Assembly (NCBI GenBank): GCA_028698535.1
Contig: JAQVDA010000001.1
Location: forward strand, 1 to 29,086
Source of the DNA: Bacilli bacterium
Lineage (GTDB): Bacteria; Bacillota_I; Bacilli_A; RF39; UBA660
Direction of reading: 5' to 3'
DNA: 29,086 nt
The translations under genes were made by a program, and so were the position numbers. Of this stretch, positions 13,114 to 17,963 are shown piece by piece; the stretch's first letter is position 1; every line of letters begins with the position of its first letter. The notes under the pieces are model-generated. The model was given only the letters and a program-made list of their open reading frames with translations. It was not told the DNA's origin and ran no database searches.

Positions 13114-13605
13114 TTATTTATTAATCTTTAGATTGTGGTCAATATAATTAGTTAATATTTTTATTAATCGTTGCTTACGGCTTTTATACTTGGCTGGTTT
13201 AAATCTTCTTACTCTTAATAGTAATTGATCAAGTTCATCAGCGTTATCAAGTGGCAAAATAAAGCCCTTCTTCGCTAAAACATTTACTAGTAATCGTTCA
13301 TTATTATTTAAGGTTTCTTCGTAATTCTTTAAACGTGGTATCACAATTATTTTTTTCCTTTGCCGTAGCCCACTCCTTATAATATCGGCGCCAACATAGG
13401 TAATAATTAAATGAGCCTGGGTAATTAATTGTTCCCTCTTTTCTTTAGTGAGAGAATCAACTACTTTAACCTGCCGCGATAGGCAATCACGACTGGTTTC
13501 TAAAATAACTTCATCTATAATTTTCCCTACATCAACCTGTTTTAAGACACTCTTCATTAACCGCGGGAAGGGTTGATTAGTATCCCCCAAGATTACTAAT
13601 ATCAT
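13114..13605 (-). CDS. Alg13-like glycosyltransferase subunit (PssE/EpsF type)
   Basis: About 163 aa corresponding to the C-terminal half of a GT28-type glycosyltransferase. The start is MILVILGDTNQPFPRL, the first beta strand and loop of the nucleotide-sugar binding domain. ITQAHLIITYVGADIIRSGL and the RKKIIVIPRLKNYEETLNNNE segment correspond to the donor-binding HxGxGT...P motifs of Alg13/MurG, in a diverged form. ATG 13605 overlaps the upstream stop as TAATG and is preferred over a TTG start 12 bases upstream. Family knowledge: Alg13 and Alg14 halves act as one enzyme, with Alg14 bringing the catalytic half to the membrane lipid acceptor. A sugar transfer to a lipid-linked intermediate is likely; the sugars are unknown. 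Confidence 0.75.
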   Translation of the reverse strand: MILVILGDTNQPFPRLMKSVLKQVDVGKIIDEVILETSRDCLSRQVKVVDSLTKEKREQLITQAHLIITYVGADIIRSGLRQRKKIIVIPRLKNYEETLNNNERLLVNVLAKKGFILPLDNADELDQLLLRVRRFKPAKYKSRKQRLIKILTNYIDHNLKINK

Positions 13606-14069
13606 TAATAAAGCCAACCGCCATAAATTGCTTTGGGATACTTTTTAAGTATTTTACGCCACTGAACAATAAATAAATCAGCGATTGGATACACTAAGCG
13701 GCCAACTAAAGATAAGGTTTTAATATTGGAAAAACTAGTAATAAAAATAACTTTGCGACGCCATAATTTAGCCGTATAACAAATTAAAACAACCAAAGGC
13801 GATTCAGTCATTATTATGATATGTGGTCTTATTGTTACTAAAAAATAACAACTTTTAAGATAGTTATATAGAAACGAAAAAATACCTTTTTCAGTAGTTA
13901 AATCATTCAAAAAGCGGAGCCTTTTTCCATAATATTGTTTCATAAAAACAGTATCATCATTCTTACTCGTAACAATATAAAAATCATATTTATTAAATGA
14001 ATCCTTAAGTTGCAGTAAAGTAAACAATGATCCGCTTGATGTCGCCATTAATAATATTCTTTTAGCCAT
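13605..14069 (-). CDS. Alg14-like membrane-associated glycosyltransferase subunit (PssD type)
   Basis: A 154-aa acceptor-binding half of a split glycosyltransferase. The opening RILLMATSSGSLFTLLQL contains the SSG(G/S)H-like loop of Alg14 (here SSGSL). It continues with YDFYIVTSKNDDT, the hydrophobic IRPHIIIMTESPLVVLICYTAK (membrane-associating) and the ending FIVQWRKILKKYPKAIYGGWLY, which resembles the family-typical QW...YPxAxYxG end. ATG 14069 has AAGGTG upstream. The stop overlaps the start of the Alg13-like partner (TAATG at 13603-13607), consistent with obligate pairing. A TATAAT lies upstream near 14090-14095, though without a good -35. The pair is isolated from any other polysaccharide gene in this window. 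Confidence 0.8.
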   Translation of the reverse strand: MAKRILLMATSSGSLFTLLQLKDSFNKYDFYIVTSKNDDTVFMKQYYGKRLRFLNDLTTEKGIFSFLYNYLKSCYFLVTIRPHIIIMTESPLVVLICYTAKLWRRKVIFITSFSNIKTLSLVGRLVYPIADLFIVQWRKILKKYPKAIYGGWLY

Positions 14070-14183: not shown

Positions 14184-15530
14184 TTATAATTGAGCCATGG
14201 GTGGTATCTTTTTCGCTTTTATTGACGATCGGCGTAGTTTTTTTATTTTTATCCCTTGAATAATAATTATTACTATTAAACTAAATAGAACAAACAAAAT
14301 AATAATTACAGGGATAAAATATTCCTGGATGATATCTTGGTAAGATTTTTGTTGCTTATTAATAAAACGCTGAAATGTTTCCTCCACTTTATCATAACGA
14401 TAAAAATTATATTGACCAGTATTAACATTCATGCCATAAATAAGATAGAAATCCCGAGCATTACCTTCACCTGATTGCCAAGCTTTTAACTTTACATCGT
14501 TAATAGTAATAGATGTTGGGCGGTAATTTCTTGGTATTGTAATACCTTTTGGGTTTTCAACAATATATAATCTTAATATGCCCGTTGAAAACTCATGATA
14601 CGGAATATATGTCTCTTTATTCGCATTATAAATAAACAGACTAATCTTTCCTTGTTCATCTTTTAAGGGCACCAAACATAACTTTGTTATTTCGTTGGTA
14701 TAAGCCACTACATCAAGCGCATGAATTGGAATAATGGTTTCTCGATAATTTTCTGGAATATCGATAACAGAACCCTTTTTAATCACGGTATATTTTTTAG
14801 GGCCAATAGTAACATTAATAGGATTATTATCAAAAACATCAATATTAATAGTATAAATTTGCGTTTTACCATCTTCGGCCGTTACTTTTACTTCAAAAGT
14901 GTTTTTGCCTTCACTAAGCACTACCTCGCCATCACCAAGGATACTAGCTTTACTATCTTCAGGAGTAGCTTTAATAGTTAATTTATCAATCAATTCATCA
15001 ATACTAACATTATATTCCGTTGTTTTCTTATTAAATATCGGGTCTAATGTACCGGCTGTAACAGTCAATTCTGATAGATAAGCATTAGAAGATTTCACCG
15101 TAATGGTTGGTTTAACAATGTTAATATTCGCCGGAGAGGTACTAAGGGCTAGTTTAGCCTCAGTATTAAAGTCTAACACTAAGGCGTTTTTCACACTTAC
15201 CGATGTGCTACCTGCTGTAAGAGTCTTAAAAGTATAAGTATAAGACGCCGTTTTTTTAACGCCGTCCCCATAACCAACTATATATGTAGCTGGGGTCGAA
15301 CTAACTAACCTTAATTTAGAACTATCATAGTTAAGAACAAATTCCCAGGCCCCAATAGGAGCAGAGCTAGAAACAGTCACTGTTACATTAACATTATTAC
15401 CTACTACCACATTAGTTAATGATGCCCTGGTATTAATTACGCCTGATAGAGCGTTTATATTAATAGTATTTAAAATACTAAAAAATATAAAACAGGTACC
15501 CAGAAAAATAAGTTTTTTTATTTCCTTCAT
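14184..15530 (-). CDS. Membrane-anchored cohesin-domain protein
   Basis: A 448-aa surface protein. Signal peptide about 1-27 (cleavage near NINA-LSG). Residues 31-138 form a cohesin-like beta sandwich: tandem beta strands with VVVGNNVNVTVTV, APIGAWEFVLNYDSSKLRLV and the TFKTLTAGSTSVSV stretch typical of type I/II cohesins. Residues 150-232 are a cadherin-like beta-sandwich repeat (LSELTVTAGTLDP, TTEYNVSI, GKTQIYTINI). Residues 236-385 are an unassigned beta-rich domain. A transmembrane helix spans about 405-425, followed by a basic tail (KIKKLRRSSIKAKK), so the cohesin faces outside. The gene starts 12 bases after the dockerin-bearing glucosaminidase, with GGAGG upstream, and ends the operon. 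I infer that it docks that hydrolase at the membrane. Confidence 0.85.
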   Translation of the reverse strand: MKEIKKLIFLGTCFIFFSILNTININALSGVINTRASLTNVVVGNNVNVTVTVSSSAPIGAWEFVLNYDSSKLRLVSSTPATYIVGYGDGVKKTASYTYTFKTLTAGSTSVSVKNALVLDFNTEAKLALSTSPANINIVKPTITVKSSNAYLSELTVTAGTLDPIFNKKTTEYNVSIDELIDKLTIKATPEDSKASILGDGEVVLSEGKNTFEVKVTAEDGKTQIYTINIDVFDNNPINVTIGPKKYTVIKKGSVIDIPENYRETIIPIHALDVVAYTNEITKLCLVPLKDEQGKISLFIYNANKETYIPYHEFSTGILRLYIVENPKGITIPRNYRPTSITINDVKLKAWQSGEGNARDFYLIYGMNVNTGQYNFYRYDKVEETFQRFINKQQKSYQDIIQEYFIPVIIILFVLFSLIVIIIIQGIKIKKLRRSSIKAKKIPPMAQL

Positions 15531-15542
15531 AAAAACCTCCGT

Positions 15543-17558
15543 TTAATAGATAAGTGATACACCTAATATATGTTTTTGAACCTTTAATAAGTCGCGAATG
15601 GTAACGGTCCCAGCTTTATTTATGTCCCCTGCTTTAACAAAAGCTCCTTTTAGATTATTTAAACCTAATAAATGCTTTTGAATTATTAATAAATCGTGAA
15701 TAGTTATCTCACCATCACCATTAACATCCCCTGGCATTATAACGGTATAAGTGGTTTCTTCCTTACTGTTATTAATAGTAATAGTATCGCCTGTCGCAAT
15801 TTTCCCGGATACTTTACTATTACCATTATAATCTTTAACCGCAGCTGACACAACGATATTAGTTCCCTCTATTTTGGCTTTAAGCTGTTGTGGACTAGTA
15901 TGTAGATTAATGCCACTTATAAAATTATCGTTAATGTTTAATTTTAAATTATAAAGAATTTCCTCAGAAGTAATCGGAATACTATCATCTTTAGTTATAT
16001 TTAAGGTATAAGTTCTCATATTTCCATTTTGAGCTTTAACTTTAATCTCAACCCGATTATTAGTATCCGGCATATTTATTAAGCCCGTTCCAGAAACTGT
16101 GGCTACTGAACTTATCGGGGGCGCTGCGATGGTGACGCTACTAGCGGGCGGAATACTAATATTATATGTTTGGGTGGTACGATTGAATGACGCAATACTT
16201 TTGTTATTTATTTTTATTTCCTTTAAATAGTTATTAGGATTACCTAATTTAGTTGGTAAAGTAGTTTCTACTGGCATATTGTCATAAACAGGAATAAGAA
16301 AAGTTAGTGGCTGCTCTAAAATGTCATAATCCTTATATGAAGAGTAAGCTGTTGCACCTTCTGATTTTGGGGCTTCAATATTAGTCATATATTGATGAGT
16401 ATGCACATCATAAAAGGCTTGAGGAGAAACATTAAATTTTTGTAAATACATAGTATTTTGGCCTTTATTAATATAACTGCTAGCCAAAAACTCTGACCCC
16501 CCCATTAACGATTTATAAATGTTGTTCCAAGGTCGACCGAAAATACCTTCCCTAAAGGCATAGGCAAGTCCATTACATATTACCTCATCTAGATTCTTGC
16601 CATAAGCATTGACATTAAAGAAATTATAAGTATTAATATAAGAAGCACAGGCGGGATAGGGATTACCACTTACCAAAGGTCCCGCTTTGGTTCCCTGTTC
16701 TTGCCTAACTCTCGACGCTAAATGAATCGGACTGGCTTTGGTCTTTTCCGCAGCCTCAATAAAAGTTGATGCATATGATTTTGATTTACCTTCATGAACA
16801 TAAGTATTAGCCATAAAAGTGCCATCCAATATTTTCTGTACCACAGCGGTAGTATGATAATTATTGTTATAACTTAGCTCTTCATACATTAAAATATTAT
16901 AAGGATTTAAAAAGTTTCTAGGATCAAGATAATAAGCCACAACTTCTTTATTAGCAGCCCGCCAATCTCCATTATCAAATTTTTTCCAACTATCATTATC
17001 CCAATCATAAGCACCTGGCTCGGTAGAAAAATAAGCAACATCACGCGAGGAAGAGATAAGGCTTTTACCAGTTGCGCTTTGCGCATTAACCGTGCTTTGC
17101 CAATCTAAATTTGTCATTAAAGGTTCAAACTGCCAATTGGGGTATAAAGCGTGTAAAAACCGTAAGCCTGGTAAATAGCTATCAGGAAAGCCCTTTGATT
17201 TTGAAGTAGCCACAAACTCATCATCATTATCAAGACTGTATTTATATATAGTAATTAAATCGCTCCGCATATATCCCTGATAAGAGACACCAGCGTAGAT
17301 AAATTGAATATGGTACCAGTTATAACCATCAGTCCCCGCTTTGGTGTCGAGAATAGTTACTTTGTGCCCAGCAGAAAGTTGAACTCCCCTGGCACCCGCC
17401 ATAACATTAGGATGGGTTGTTCCTGGTCCGGTCCTAACATTAGCCGTAACATTAACGAGTGGTTGAGAAATAGTTTCAGCATATATATTAGTAGGAATAA
17501 GGAAAATATTAATTAAAAAAGCAATAATTAATAATCTATTTACTAATCTTATCTTCAT
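15543..17558 (-). CDS. Secreted SH3b-glucosaminidase-dockerin protein
   Basis: About 671 aa. Signal peptide 1-29 ends NIYA-ET. A bacterial SH3 domain covers about 30-105 (VTANVRTGPG, WYHIQF, GYMRSDLI). An endo-beta-N-acetylglucosaminidase domain covers about 115-400 with FPDSYLPGLRFLHALYPNW, YYLDPRNFLN and HLASRVRQEQGT; Glu287 in RQEQG is the likely catalytic acid. Next come a cadherin-like repeat (about 443-523) and a further beta domain. The C-terminus (about 611-671) is a type I dockerin with two Ca-loop/helix repeats: DVNGDGEITIHD and DINKAGTVTIRD, each followed by LL-x-x-QKH-x-LG. The second repeat has Ala649 in place of a calcium ligand. Start ATG 17558 (GGGAG upstream) is chosen because the ATG at 17609 lies at the predicted transcription start. 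It is first in the operon with the cohesin gene. Confidence 0.92.
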   Translation of the reverse strand: MKIRLVNRLLIIAFLINIFLIPTNIYAETISQPLVNVTANVRTGPGTTHPNVMAGARGVQLSAGHKVTILDTKAGTDGYNWYHIQFIYAGVSYQGYMRSDLITIYKYSLDNDDEFVATSKSKGFPDSYLPGLRFLHALYPNWQFEPLMTNLDWQSTVNAQSATGKSLISSSRDVAYFSTEPGAYDWDNDSWKKFDNGDWRAANKEVVAYYLDPRNFLNPYNILMYEELSYNNNYHTTAVVQKILDGTFMANTYVHEGKSKSYASTFIEAAEKTKASPIHLASRVRQEQGTKAGPLVSGNPYPACASYINTYNFFNVNAYGKNLDEVICNGLAYAFREGIFGRPWNNIYKSLMGGSEFLASSYINKGQNTMYLQKFNVSPQAFYDVHTHQYMTNIEAPKSEGATAYSSYKDYDILEQPLTFLIPVYDNMPVETTLPTKLGNPNNYLKEIKINNKSIASFNRTTQTYNISIPPASSVTIAAPPISSVATVSGTGLINMPDTNNRVEIKVKAQNGNMRTYTLNITKDDSIPITSEEILYNLKLNINDNFISGINLHTSPQQLKAKIEGTNIVVSAAVKDYNGNSKVSGKIATGDTITINNSKEETTYTVIMPGDVNGDGEITIHDLLIIQKHLLGLNNLKGAFVKAGDINKAGTVTIRDLLKVQKHILGVSLIY

Positions 17559-17613
17559 GGCAATCTCCCTTTCTTGTCCTAATTTATGTTTGAGATAACA
17601 GTTTCTCATTTAA

Positions 17614-17622
17614 ATTATAACA
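17614..17622 (-). promoter_or_regulatory. Extended -10 promoter of the glucosaminidase-cohesin operon
   Basis: Minus strand TGTTATAAT preceded by a run of about ten T. The start is expected near 17607, leaving about 50 bases of leader to the ATG at 17558 and excluding the upstream ATG as a usable start. Confidence 0.55.
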
Positions 17623-17661
17623 AAAAAAAAAGGAAGAGCCAATCCTTCGGTCTAAAAACCG
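17621..17661 (-). terminator. Probable terminator upstream of the glucosaminidase gene
   Basis: On the minus strand CGGT/ACCG forms a small hairpin. It is followed by AAGGA-TTGGCTCT-TCCTT and about ten T (17621-17631). The stems are short, so this is a weak terminator call. It would end transcripts coming from helD and the tandem RNA elements. Confidence 0.4.
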
Positions 17662-17696: not shown

Positions 17697-17759
17697 TGGG
17701 TATATTCACCTTGCGGTGAATATACCCATTGTCACAGCAATAACCTATTGCTGTGACAT
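17697..17759 (-). ncRNA. Two-hairpin RNA element, copy 1
   Basis: Minus-strand order: stem A TGTCACAGCAATA-GGT-TATTGCTGTGACA (13 bp, 17730-17758), then stem B, 14 bp (17697-17728) closed by the tetraloop GCAA. C(GCAA)G is a classical GNRA tetraloop only in the minus-strand sense. A TATAAT at 17764-17769 would start transcription at about 17757-17759, exactly at stem A. After stem B comes CTTTTATTA, a weak U tract. Compared with copy 2, four base pairs of stem B differ and all are compensated. Family not recognised. Confidence 0.6.
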
Positions 17760-17763
17760 TAAT

Positions 17764-17769
17764 ATTATA
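17764..17769 (-). promoter_or_regulatory. -10 box upstream of RNA element copy 1
   Basis: Minus strand TATAAT within the conserved string GAATATAATATTA. It is shared with copy 2, together with an upstream TGTATA at about the -35 distance (18-base spacing). The -35 is poor. Confidence 0.4.
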
Positions 17770-17896
17770 TTCAACATTATAAAAAAATATACATTTTTTA
17801 TAATTTTTTTTATTACTCAAAAGACATTGGTATTAAAAATAAATTCGGTGATTTTATTTTAATTAATAATATAAGTAAGTATTAGAATAATATGTA

Positions 17897-17963
17897 ATAA
17901 TGGGAACATCCACTTTGCAGTGGATGTTCCCATTATCACAGCAATAGATTATTGCTGTGACAC
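17897..17963 (-). ncRNA. Two-hairpin RNA element, copy 2
   Basis: Minus-strand order: stem A (17936-17960, 11 strict base pairs, extending through a G-U pair and one more pair at 17934-17962) with loop ATC. Stem B follows: 18 perfect base pairs (17897-17914 with 17919-17936) closed by GCAA. The G-C pair of copy 1 stem A is a G-U wobble here in minus sense but would be an A-C mismatch in plus sense, which favours the minus strand. TATAAT at 17968-17973 precedes it. No clear U tract follows stem B, so the two copies may also be co-transcribed from helD. Function unknown. Confidence 0.6.

Follow-up and report, generated by a model that had tools for sequence, protein, structure and literature searches.

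Two adjacent genes on the minus strand of the Bacilli bacterium contig JAQVDA010000001.1 (GenBank assembly GCA_028698535.1; GTDB lineage Bacillota_I; Bacilli_A; RF39; UBA660) encode a glucosaminidase with a type I dockerin at its C-terminal end and, 12 nucleotides (nt) further on, a cohesin protein with a transmembrane segment. Across 163 operons of this kind the symmetric face of the dockerin covaries with the cohesin encoded next to it, and we consider it likely, with good confidence, from these sequence comparisons that the two proteins form a two-component surface anchor for peptidoglycan-cutting enzymes. Cohesin–dockerin pairs are known above all for assembling polysaccharide-degrading complexes; here there is apparently one enzyme for one receptor, which would place a peptidoglycan hydrolase at the membrane. 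The DNA analysed (positions 1 to 29,086 of the contig, 29,086 nt) is called the window, and the features of the operon are as follows (aa, amino acids; ORF, open reading frame).

15543..17558, minus strand: gene 1, 671 aa, a secreted glucosaminidase carrying a dockerin at its C terminus (ORF, ribosome-binding site and signal peptide in the sequence; profile against PDB)
17478..17558, minus strand: signal peptide, gene 1 residues about 1–27 (sequence)
17256..17462, minus strand: SH3b domain, gene 1 residues about 33–101 (Pfam SH3_3, 21.2 bits, under cut-off)
16269..17216, minus strand: glucosaminidase (GH73-like) catalytic region, residues about 115–430 (phmmer to autolysins; profile against PDB)
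16698..16700, minus strand: codon of catalytic Glu287 (alignment with the autolysin E glutamate, which is Ala in the variant chain 4pi8)
15990..16220, minus strand: cadherin-like beta-sandwich, gene 1 residues 447–523 (Pfam PF12733, 17.1 bits, under cut-off)
15738..15914, minus strand: domain before the dockerin, here labelled X-module-like, residues about 549–607 (AlphaFold predicted local distance difference test score (pLDDT) 94–98 by blocks)
15564..15734, minus strand: type I dockerin, gene 1 residues 609–665 (Pfam PF00404, 53.0 bits, six-frame search)
15531..15542, minus strand: intergenic gap of 12 nt with a GGAGG ribosome site at 15536–15540 (sequence)
14184..15530, minus strand: gene 2, anchor protein with cohesin, cadherin-like domain, C domain and transmembrane helix, 448 aa (ORF, Pfam, model)
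15114..15446, minus strand: cohesin domain, gene 2 residues 29–139
14841..15077, minus strand: cadherin-like domain, gene 2 residues 152–230 (Pfam PF12733, 41.1 bits, over cut-off)
14361..14837, minus strand: conserved unnamed all-beta C domain, gene 2 residues 232–390 (conserved columns; beta strands in the model)
14268..14333, minus strand: transmembrane helix, residues about 400–421, and short basic tail (helix 397–440 in the model)

Covariation of the dockerin face with the adjoining cohesin

The face was defined from the dockerin alone. Repeats 1 and 2 were compared in 164 dockerins (one gapped dockerin was dropped), and the face set was fixed from the repeat match before any look at the cohesin data. 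The results showed that the two repeats were identical at positions 10, 11, 13, 14, 17, 18 and 21 in 78–98% of the dockerins, against 20–50% expected; the residues vary between species, and none of 2000 shuffles reached the observed match at any of these seven positions. In the window dockerin the repeats differ at face position 11 (H/R). Position 20 matched as well as position 11 (84% against 47% expected) yet lies outside the face set, and its own correlation with the cohesin was 0.14–0.15. Positions 2, 3, 7, 9, 15, 19, 22 and 23 matched above expectation but less completely (29–71%), and positions 4, 8 and 16, with the near-invariant 5 and 6, no more than expected, on which ground gene conversion was rejected as the sole source of the symmetry. 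The recognition positions given in the available text of PMC3413522 are 10, 11, 17, 18 and 22, and the contacts of RfDoc1a listed in that of PMC5429695 (Ile39, Ser40, Val43, Met46, Gln47 and Ala50) have the spacing of positions 10, 11, 14, 17, 18 and 21. That the symmetry is concentrated on the contact face suggests selection for the ability of either repeat to bind the one partner, a dual-binding mode.

For the comparison with the cohesin, 179 pairs were reduced to 165 by removal of duplicates and to 163 operons after one gapped dockerin and one pair lacking a cadherin-like match were dropped. The set left out the family loci L122, L187 and L206 and took from the 80 named loci of the species-genome scan only hydrolases with both dockerin and neighbour. 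Face distance correlated with cohesin-domain distance at r 0.75; the partial r was 0.738 after removal of catalytic, cadherin-like and C-domain distance, and none of 500 permutations reached it. Against the anchor protein's cadherin-like or C domain the face gave −0.03. With the cohesin, the X-module gave 0.048 over all pairs and the seven other dockerin positions gave 0.105, which also lay above all 500 permutations. Position by position, the seven face positions of either repeat had correlations of 0.21–0.64, whereas the other scored columns (near-invariant ones excluded) lay between −0.18 and 0.17. The 125 full-length cohesins alone gave an all-pairs partial value of 0.56, and the covarying cohesin columns were W62, G60, Y68, Y97, T94, L75 and A27. 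The pairing of the two proteins, for which the preliminary description had only the operon to go on, is thus supported because face positions covary with the neighbouring cohesin in 163 operons, whereas non-face positions hardly do.

Controls for phylogeny and linkage were the catalytic, cadherin-like and C domains, the X-module, the non-face positions and 81 disjoint sister pairs. In the 41 deep disjoint pairs the face gave 0.71, the non-face positions −0.06, the X-module 0.08 and the other domains −0.02 and −0.13. Shared phylogeny or linkage was rejected as the source of the covariation, linkage contributing mainly among close relatives and not measurably in deep pairs.

The residues at three face positions occurred in 38 different combinations among the 163 operons. 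Gln17 was found in 96 of the 125 dockerins with a full-length cohesin partner and in none of the 38 with a shortened one (Fisher 4e-19, uncorrected for kinship); the shortened state requires at least nine changes on a quick catalytic-domain tree.

Domains of the two proteins and their genomic setting

The hydrolase ORF spans 15543–17609 on the minus strand, with 17558 as the preferred start. An N-terminal hydrophobic segment was found in 157 of 165 hydrolase relatives by a simple hydropathy threshold. The window hydrolase matched bifunctional autolysin 6fxo and autolysin E in phmmer searches, and a 31-member profile searched against PDB gave 6u0o_B (1.9e-29), 6fxp_A (about 2e-29) and then autolysin 6fxo (1.1e-27). 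We take 6u0o and 6fxp to be SagB of Staphylococcus aureus; the search labels them LYZ2-domain or uncharacterised proteins. Glutamate stood at the aligned catalytic position in all 163 relatives and, together with the relation to solved glucosaminidases, marks gene 1 as a GH73-like glucosaminidase. Pfam Glucosaminidase (PF01832) gave no match in the window hydrolase at E up to 1, nor in the 31 family members at 0.01; at this threshold SH3_3 matched 21 and PF12733 19 of the 31. The dockerin scored 48.6 bits with Dockerin_1 (cut-off 22.9) over profile positions 1–57 of 57, with two F-hand repeats, and the ligands of calcium loop 1 (DVNGDGEITIHD) are complete.

In gene 2, Pfam Cohesin scored 29.6 bits against a cut-off of 24.1, over profile positions 11–94 of 139 only, and the domain matched solved cohesin folds with their jelly-roll. 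The identification of residues 31–138 as a cohesin, on which the preliminary description had staked its reading, therefore held, as did its account of a two-gene operon for a secreted glucosaminidase with a C-terminal type I dockerin, followed after 12 nt by a cohesin protein with a C-terminal transmembrane anchor; ORFs, Pfam, PDB profile matches and the model agree on these points. No Pfam family matched residues 232–390 over its cut-off. A transmembrane segment was present in 161 of 165 anchor relatives, the other four being ORFs open at a contig end. Beyond it, the cytoplasmic tail, mostly of charged residues, varies in length between about 10 and roughly 150 in the alignment (L131, L160, L208), a hint that in some lineages it makes a connection inside the cell. 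An assembly artefact in the window was ruled out, both ORFs being intact and conserved in relatives.

The source assembly (670 kb, 85 contigs, 80% complete) yielded one dockerin and one cohesin match, both from the window operon, and no further match to either in what is an 80%-complete assembly. This agrees with the expectation that there is no separate scaffoldin to capture the dockerin, and the hallmark of a cellulosome, a multi-cohesin scaffoldin carrying plant-polysaccharide enzymes, is not seen in it. The assembly holds three FtsW/RodA and four transpeptidase matches, therefore the organism builds a wall; no sortase was found in it. The best FtsW/RodA match (G000:C46:1602-2663) contains one in-frame TAG, through assembly error, decay or recoding.

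Around the operon, a promoter-like element (17614..17642, minus strand, TTGGCT-17-TATAAT) was picked up by a pattern scan whose matches in the region were no more numerous than in shuffles. At 17697–17940, between a HelD-like gene and the hydrolase promoter region, there are three long hairpins with nearly perfect stems (14, 13 and 20 pairs). Just downstream, at 13114–14069, is a PssD/PssE-like polysaccharide glycosyltransferase gene pair, with the PssE match under cut-off.

Distribution of the gene pair and its cargo

Of 288 genomes from the window's order, every one of them assigned to a single family, 163 contained Pfam cohesin, 236 Pfam dockerin and 202 the hydrolase catalytic domain; by our own tally 134 of the 236 dockerin-positive genomes had exactly one dockerin match. 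Many of the listed order-wide cohesin matches lie in very large ORFs (about 2,300–4,000 aa, e.g. G057:C5:27408-27773), far outside the size class of the anchor. From 149 listed catalytic-domain matches besides the window, 120 loci of the same family, mostly the higher-scoring ones, were fetched. The results showed a dockerin on 118 of the 120 hydrolases and a homologue of the window cohesin protein as the next same-strand gene, at −28 to +17 nt, in 116. At L209 the homologue is present but masked by an upstream start, so that 117 of 120 loci retain the pair. The exceptions are L187 and L206, both truncated by contig ends, and L122, where the hydrolase stops before the dockerin, with a truncated cohesin-like ORF 309 nt further on.

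A scan of GTDB species genomes confirmed 583 stretches, of which the best 80 were taken; they are titled Bacilli, Erysipelotrichaceae, Lachnospiraceae, Oscillospiraceae and others, some from the window's own family, and include Roseburia inulinivorans DSM 16841 and Pseudoflavonifractor sp. An44. An anchor neighbour was counted when our cohesin or C-domain model matched with E under 0.1 within 400 nt downstream. A dockerin was present on 66 of 81 hydrolases in these loci, 61 of them with an anchor-family gene downstream. At L282 a dockerin-bearing D-Ala-D-Ala carboxypeptidase gene (L282:6913-8295) lies between the hydrolase and cohesin genes, and L251 ends near the expected anchor gene. The L251 hydrolase has beside it a 476-aa protein (L251:3539-4969) with a dockerin and a cohesin-like domain by our model, an adaptor-like arrangement, in a genome with 11 dockerin matches. 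In a Bacilli metagenome-assembled genome the whole operon is tandemly duplicated (L260:4374-11543), the two copies differing by 0.70 in the cohesin domain and by 0.36 in the dockerin face. In a Roseburia inulinivorans draft the dockerin end is out of frame with the hydrolase (L275:7030-7239), probably through a sequencing frameshift.

A profile match was obtained in 45 of 392 genomes of a phylum sample. Twenty loci were hand-picked from the resulting table, 18 being from outside the window's family but within its class. At 13 of these 20 loci the gene of a dockerin protein without the window's catalytic domain is followed, at −1 to 16 nt, by that of an anchor of this type. Our C-domain model matched all 13 of these anchors and our cohesin model eight, and the cargo in 12 is a PF01832 glucosaminidase (that of L336, like its dockerin, just under cut-off); the L325 cargo matched putative endo-beta-N-acetylglucosaminidases in PDB. 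At L338 the protein encoded ahead of such an anchor is a dockerin protein with a metallo-beta-lactamase fold (L338:636-1856), so that not every cargo is a known wall hydrolase. Cargo of the type seen in the window was found at L329, L342 and L343. Four loci (L332, L340, L334, L337) have no such anchor neighbour, L334 and L337 being at contig ends, and at L339 and L340 a GH25 muramidase carries a dockerin without adjoining an anchor. The pair is therefore not peculiar to the source genome: it occurs widely in Bacillota, and its cargo comprises at least two families of glucosaminidase.

Proposed mechanism, rival explanations and known systems

From the domains, the operon and its conservation, and the residue-level coadaptation we infer binding, membrane placement, substrate and physiological role as follows. 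Gene 1 would yield a secreted glucosaminidase whose C-terminal part consists of an X-module-like domain followed by a type I dockerin, and gene 2 a single cohesin on a stalk of cadherin-like and C domains with one transmembrane helix, both proteins being exported. The dockerin face, which is formed by helices 1 and 3 and in most members of the family could be used in either of two symmetric orientations, very probably docks on the neighbouring cohesin. Tethering of the hydrolase at the membrane is quite likely, and it may serve wall remodelling, both judged from the transmembrane helix, the enzyme family and the cargo repertoire. The docked enzyme might clip glycan strands, most likely nascent ones, as SagB–SpdC of Staphylococcus does; that pair, according to the available text of PMC12272431, shortens glycan strands and releases nascent peptidoglycan from the anchor that holds it in the membrane. 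By this analogy, control of strand length or release has somewhat less than an even chance of being the role of the hydrolase–anchor pair.

Several observations weigh against such an anchor. The dockerin, linker and cohesin were folded as one AlphaFold chain, with the TAA stop that separates the genes, in frame with both of them, read as Gly. Of the complex that the preliminary description had suggested predicting, the domains came out confidently (pLDDT 93.1) but the placement of dockerin on cohesin did not; there is no confident docking in the model because the predicted template modelling score (pTM) is 0.53. The signal-peptide helix in the modelled linker may hinder docking. Calcium loop 2 of the window dockerin (DINKAGTVTIRD) has Ala at position 5, seen in two of 164 dockerins. 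Pfam Cohesin at 0.01 recognised only seven of 31 anchor proteins, our own cohesin model left five of the 13 other-cargo anchors unmatched, and the cohesin domain is shortened in 38 of the 163 anchors. An independent-pairs test of short cohesin against dockerin class gave five supported pairs, on average 3.3 in the same and 0 in the opposite direction, too few for significance. L235, L261 and L288 have dockerin-bearing hydrolases without an adjoining cohesin-family gene. In 15 of the best 80 loci (13 titled Lachnospiraceae or Frisingicoccus) the hydrolase has no detectable dockerin; a cohesin-family gene still follows in 13 of them, and Pfam found no dockerin in 10 of the 15 genomes, therefore the gene pair can exist without a dockerin. 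In the anchor's favour, 13 of these 15 hydrolases have three to five SH3 repeats, against zero to two in all 66 dockerin-bearing ones; the other two have two repeats (L266) and one repeat plus a weak choline-binding-repeat match (L267). We read the extra repeats as the dockerin having been replaced by direct wall binding, although the neighbour is retained in 13 of the 15. The arrangement is thus not found everywhere: in a subset, mostly Lachnospiraceae, the partner gene is present but the hydrolase has no dockerin.

The covariation itself might come from the gene junction, the 3′ end of gene 1 and the 5′ end of gene 2, having been exchanged as one DNA block without any pairing of the proteins. 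The two domains do adjoin in the DNA, and in the 81 disjoint sister pairs the non-face positions correlated with the cohesin at 0.66 (face 0.79) before separation; with each given the others, the face kept 0.67, and the non-face positions and the X-module 0.28 each, which also counts against pairing as the whole cause. Among the 40 close pairs linked exchange contributes, because the non-face positions equal the face at 0.53 and the X-module reaches 0.34, and the all-pairs non-face value, as noted, exceeds every permutation. A moving block would, however, carry the X-module and non-face positions along, and these stay at 0.05 and 0.105 over all pairs and at 0.08 and −0.06 in deep pairs, against 0.71 for the face. 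The position profile contradicts block exchange as the sole cause, which we regard as very improbable.

It is also improbable, by about the same measure, that the cohesin protein mainly takes other ligands, the hydrolase using another scaffoldin or acting free and the operon reflecting co-regulation. Such an arrangement would suit the relatives with several dockerins (up to 18 matches per genome) and other large cohesin ORFs, and the neighbour kept by dockerin-less hydrolases; against it stand the single cohesin and dockerin of the 80%-complete source assembly and a face-specific coevolution that is with the adjoining cohesin. Least probable is a device for killing rivals or scavenging on other cells' walls. 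Secreted wall hydrolases can act on neighbours, but an enzyme on a short membrane stalk would stay beneath the wall of the producer itself, the source genome makes its own peptidoglycan, and the best PDB match, 6u0o, is presumably SagB, an own-wall enzyme.

If the pair works as a surface anchor, it bears on how Gram-positive bacteria keep dangerous wall hydrolases rightly placed. The hosts comprise bacteria with very small genomes and Clostridia, including the cultured Roseburia inulinivorans, and the system would make this placement testable in a cultivable organism through deletion or swapping of one small domain. The pairs, matched within an operon but divergent from one another, might also supply orthogonal protein connectors. 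A tentative extension, somewhat less probable than the SagB-like role, is a general docking platform of Bacillota, in which a one-cohesin membrane receptor would take swappable dockerin-tagged wall enzymes in a SagB–SpdC-like job, with lock and key matched within each lineage and a variable, charged cytoplasmic tail that may signal docking to the cell. Its cargo would be the two glucosaminidase families and possibly also D,D-carboxypeptidase and GH25 muramidase; if true, it would amount to a large natural library of cohesin–dockerin specificities.

With the cellulosomal type I systems of Clostridium thermocellum, Acetivibrio and Ruminococcus flavefaciens the pair shares the dockerin family with its two F-hands, the recognition positions and the cohesin fold, and the internal two-fold symmetry of the dockerin is as in C. 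thermocellum. Unlike cellulosomes, it has a peptidoglycan hydrolase as cargo, a single cohesin on a transmembrane stalk and one pair in the assembly, in which no multi-cohesin scaffoldin was found. In Clostridium perfringens non-cellulosomal cohesins (2vo8, 2jh2, 2w1n) are, by their PDB titles, modules of glycoside hydrolases, whereas here the cohesin sits on a dedicated membrane anchor. SagB–SpdC of S. aureus likewise joins a glucosaminidase to a membrane partner, but there the partner, SpdC, is a member of the CAAX protease family and integral to the membrane, and the available text does not describe cohesin or dockerin there (PMC12272431). The mucinolysome of Limousia is another gut-bacterial cohesin–dockerin system outside cellulose degradation; according to the available text it is a multi-enzyme mucin-degrading complex (PMC12997984), in contrast to the one-to-one wall-hydrolase anchor proposed here. 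No description of cohesin–dockerin anchoring of wall hydrolases was found in searches of the open-licence literature, nor in the available portions of PMC5814915, PMC5817068 and PMC4217186. The nearest precedent found is RflaF_05439 of R. flavefaciens, which has two NlpC/P60 modules and an X-dockerin bound by the cell-surface cohesin ScaE, so that a peptidase of a family including wall peptidases is held at the surface by cohesin and dockerin. It differs, as far as the available text goes, in being part of a large cellulosome whose ScaE is attached through a sortase-like signal and serves other proteins, and its function is called speculative there (PMC3573020). Cohesins outside cellulosomes were already known.

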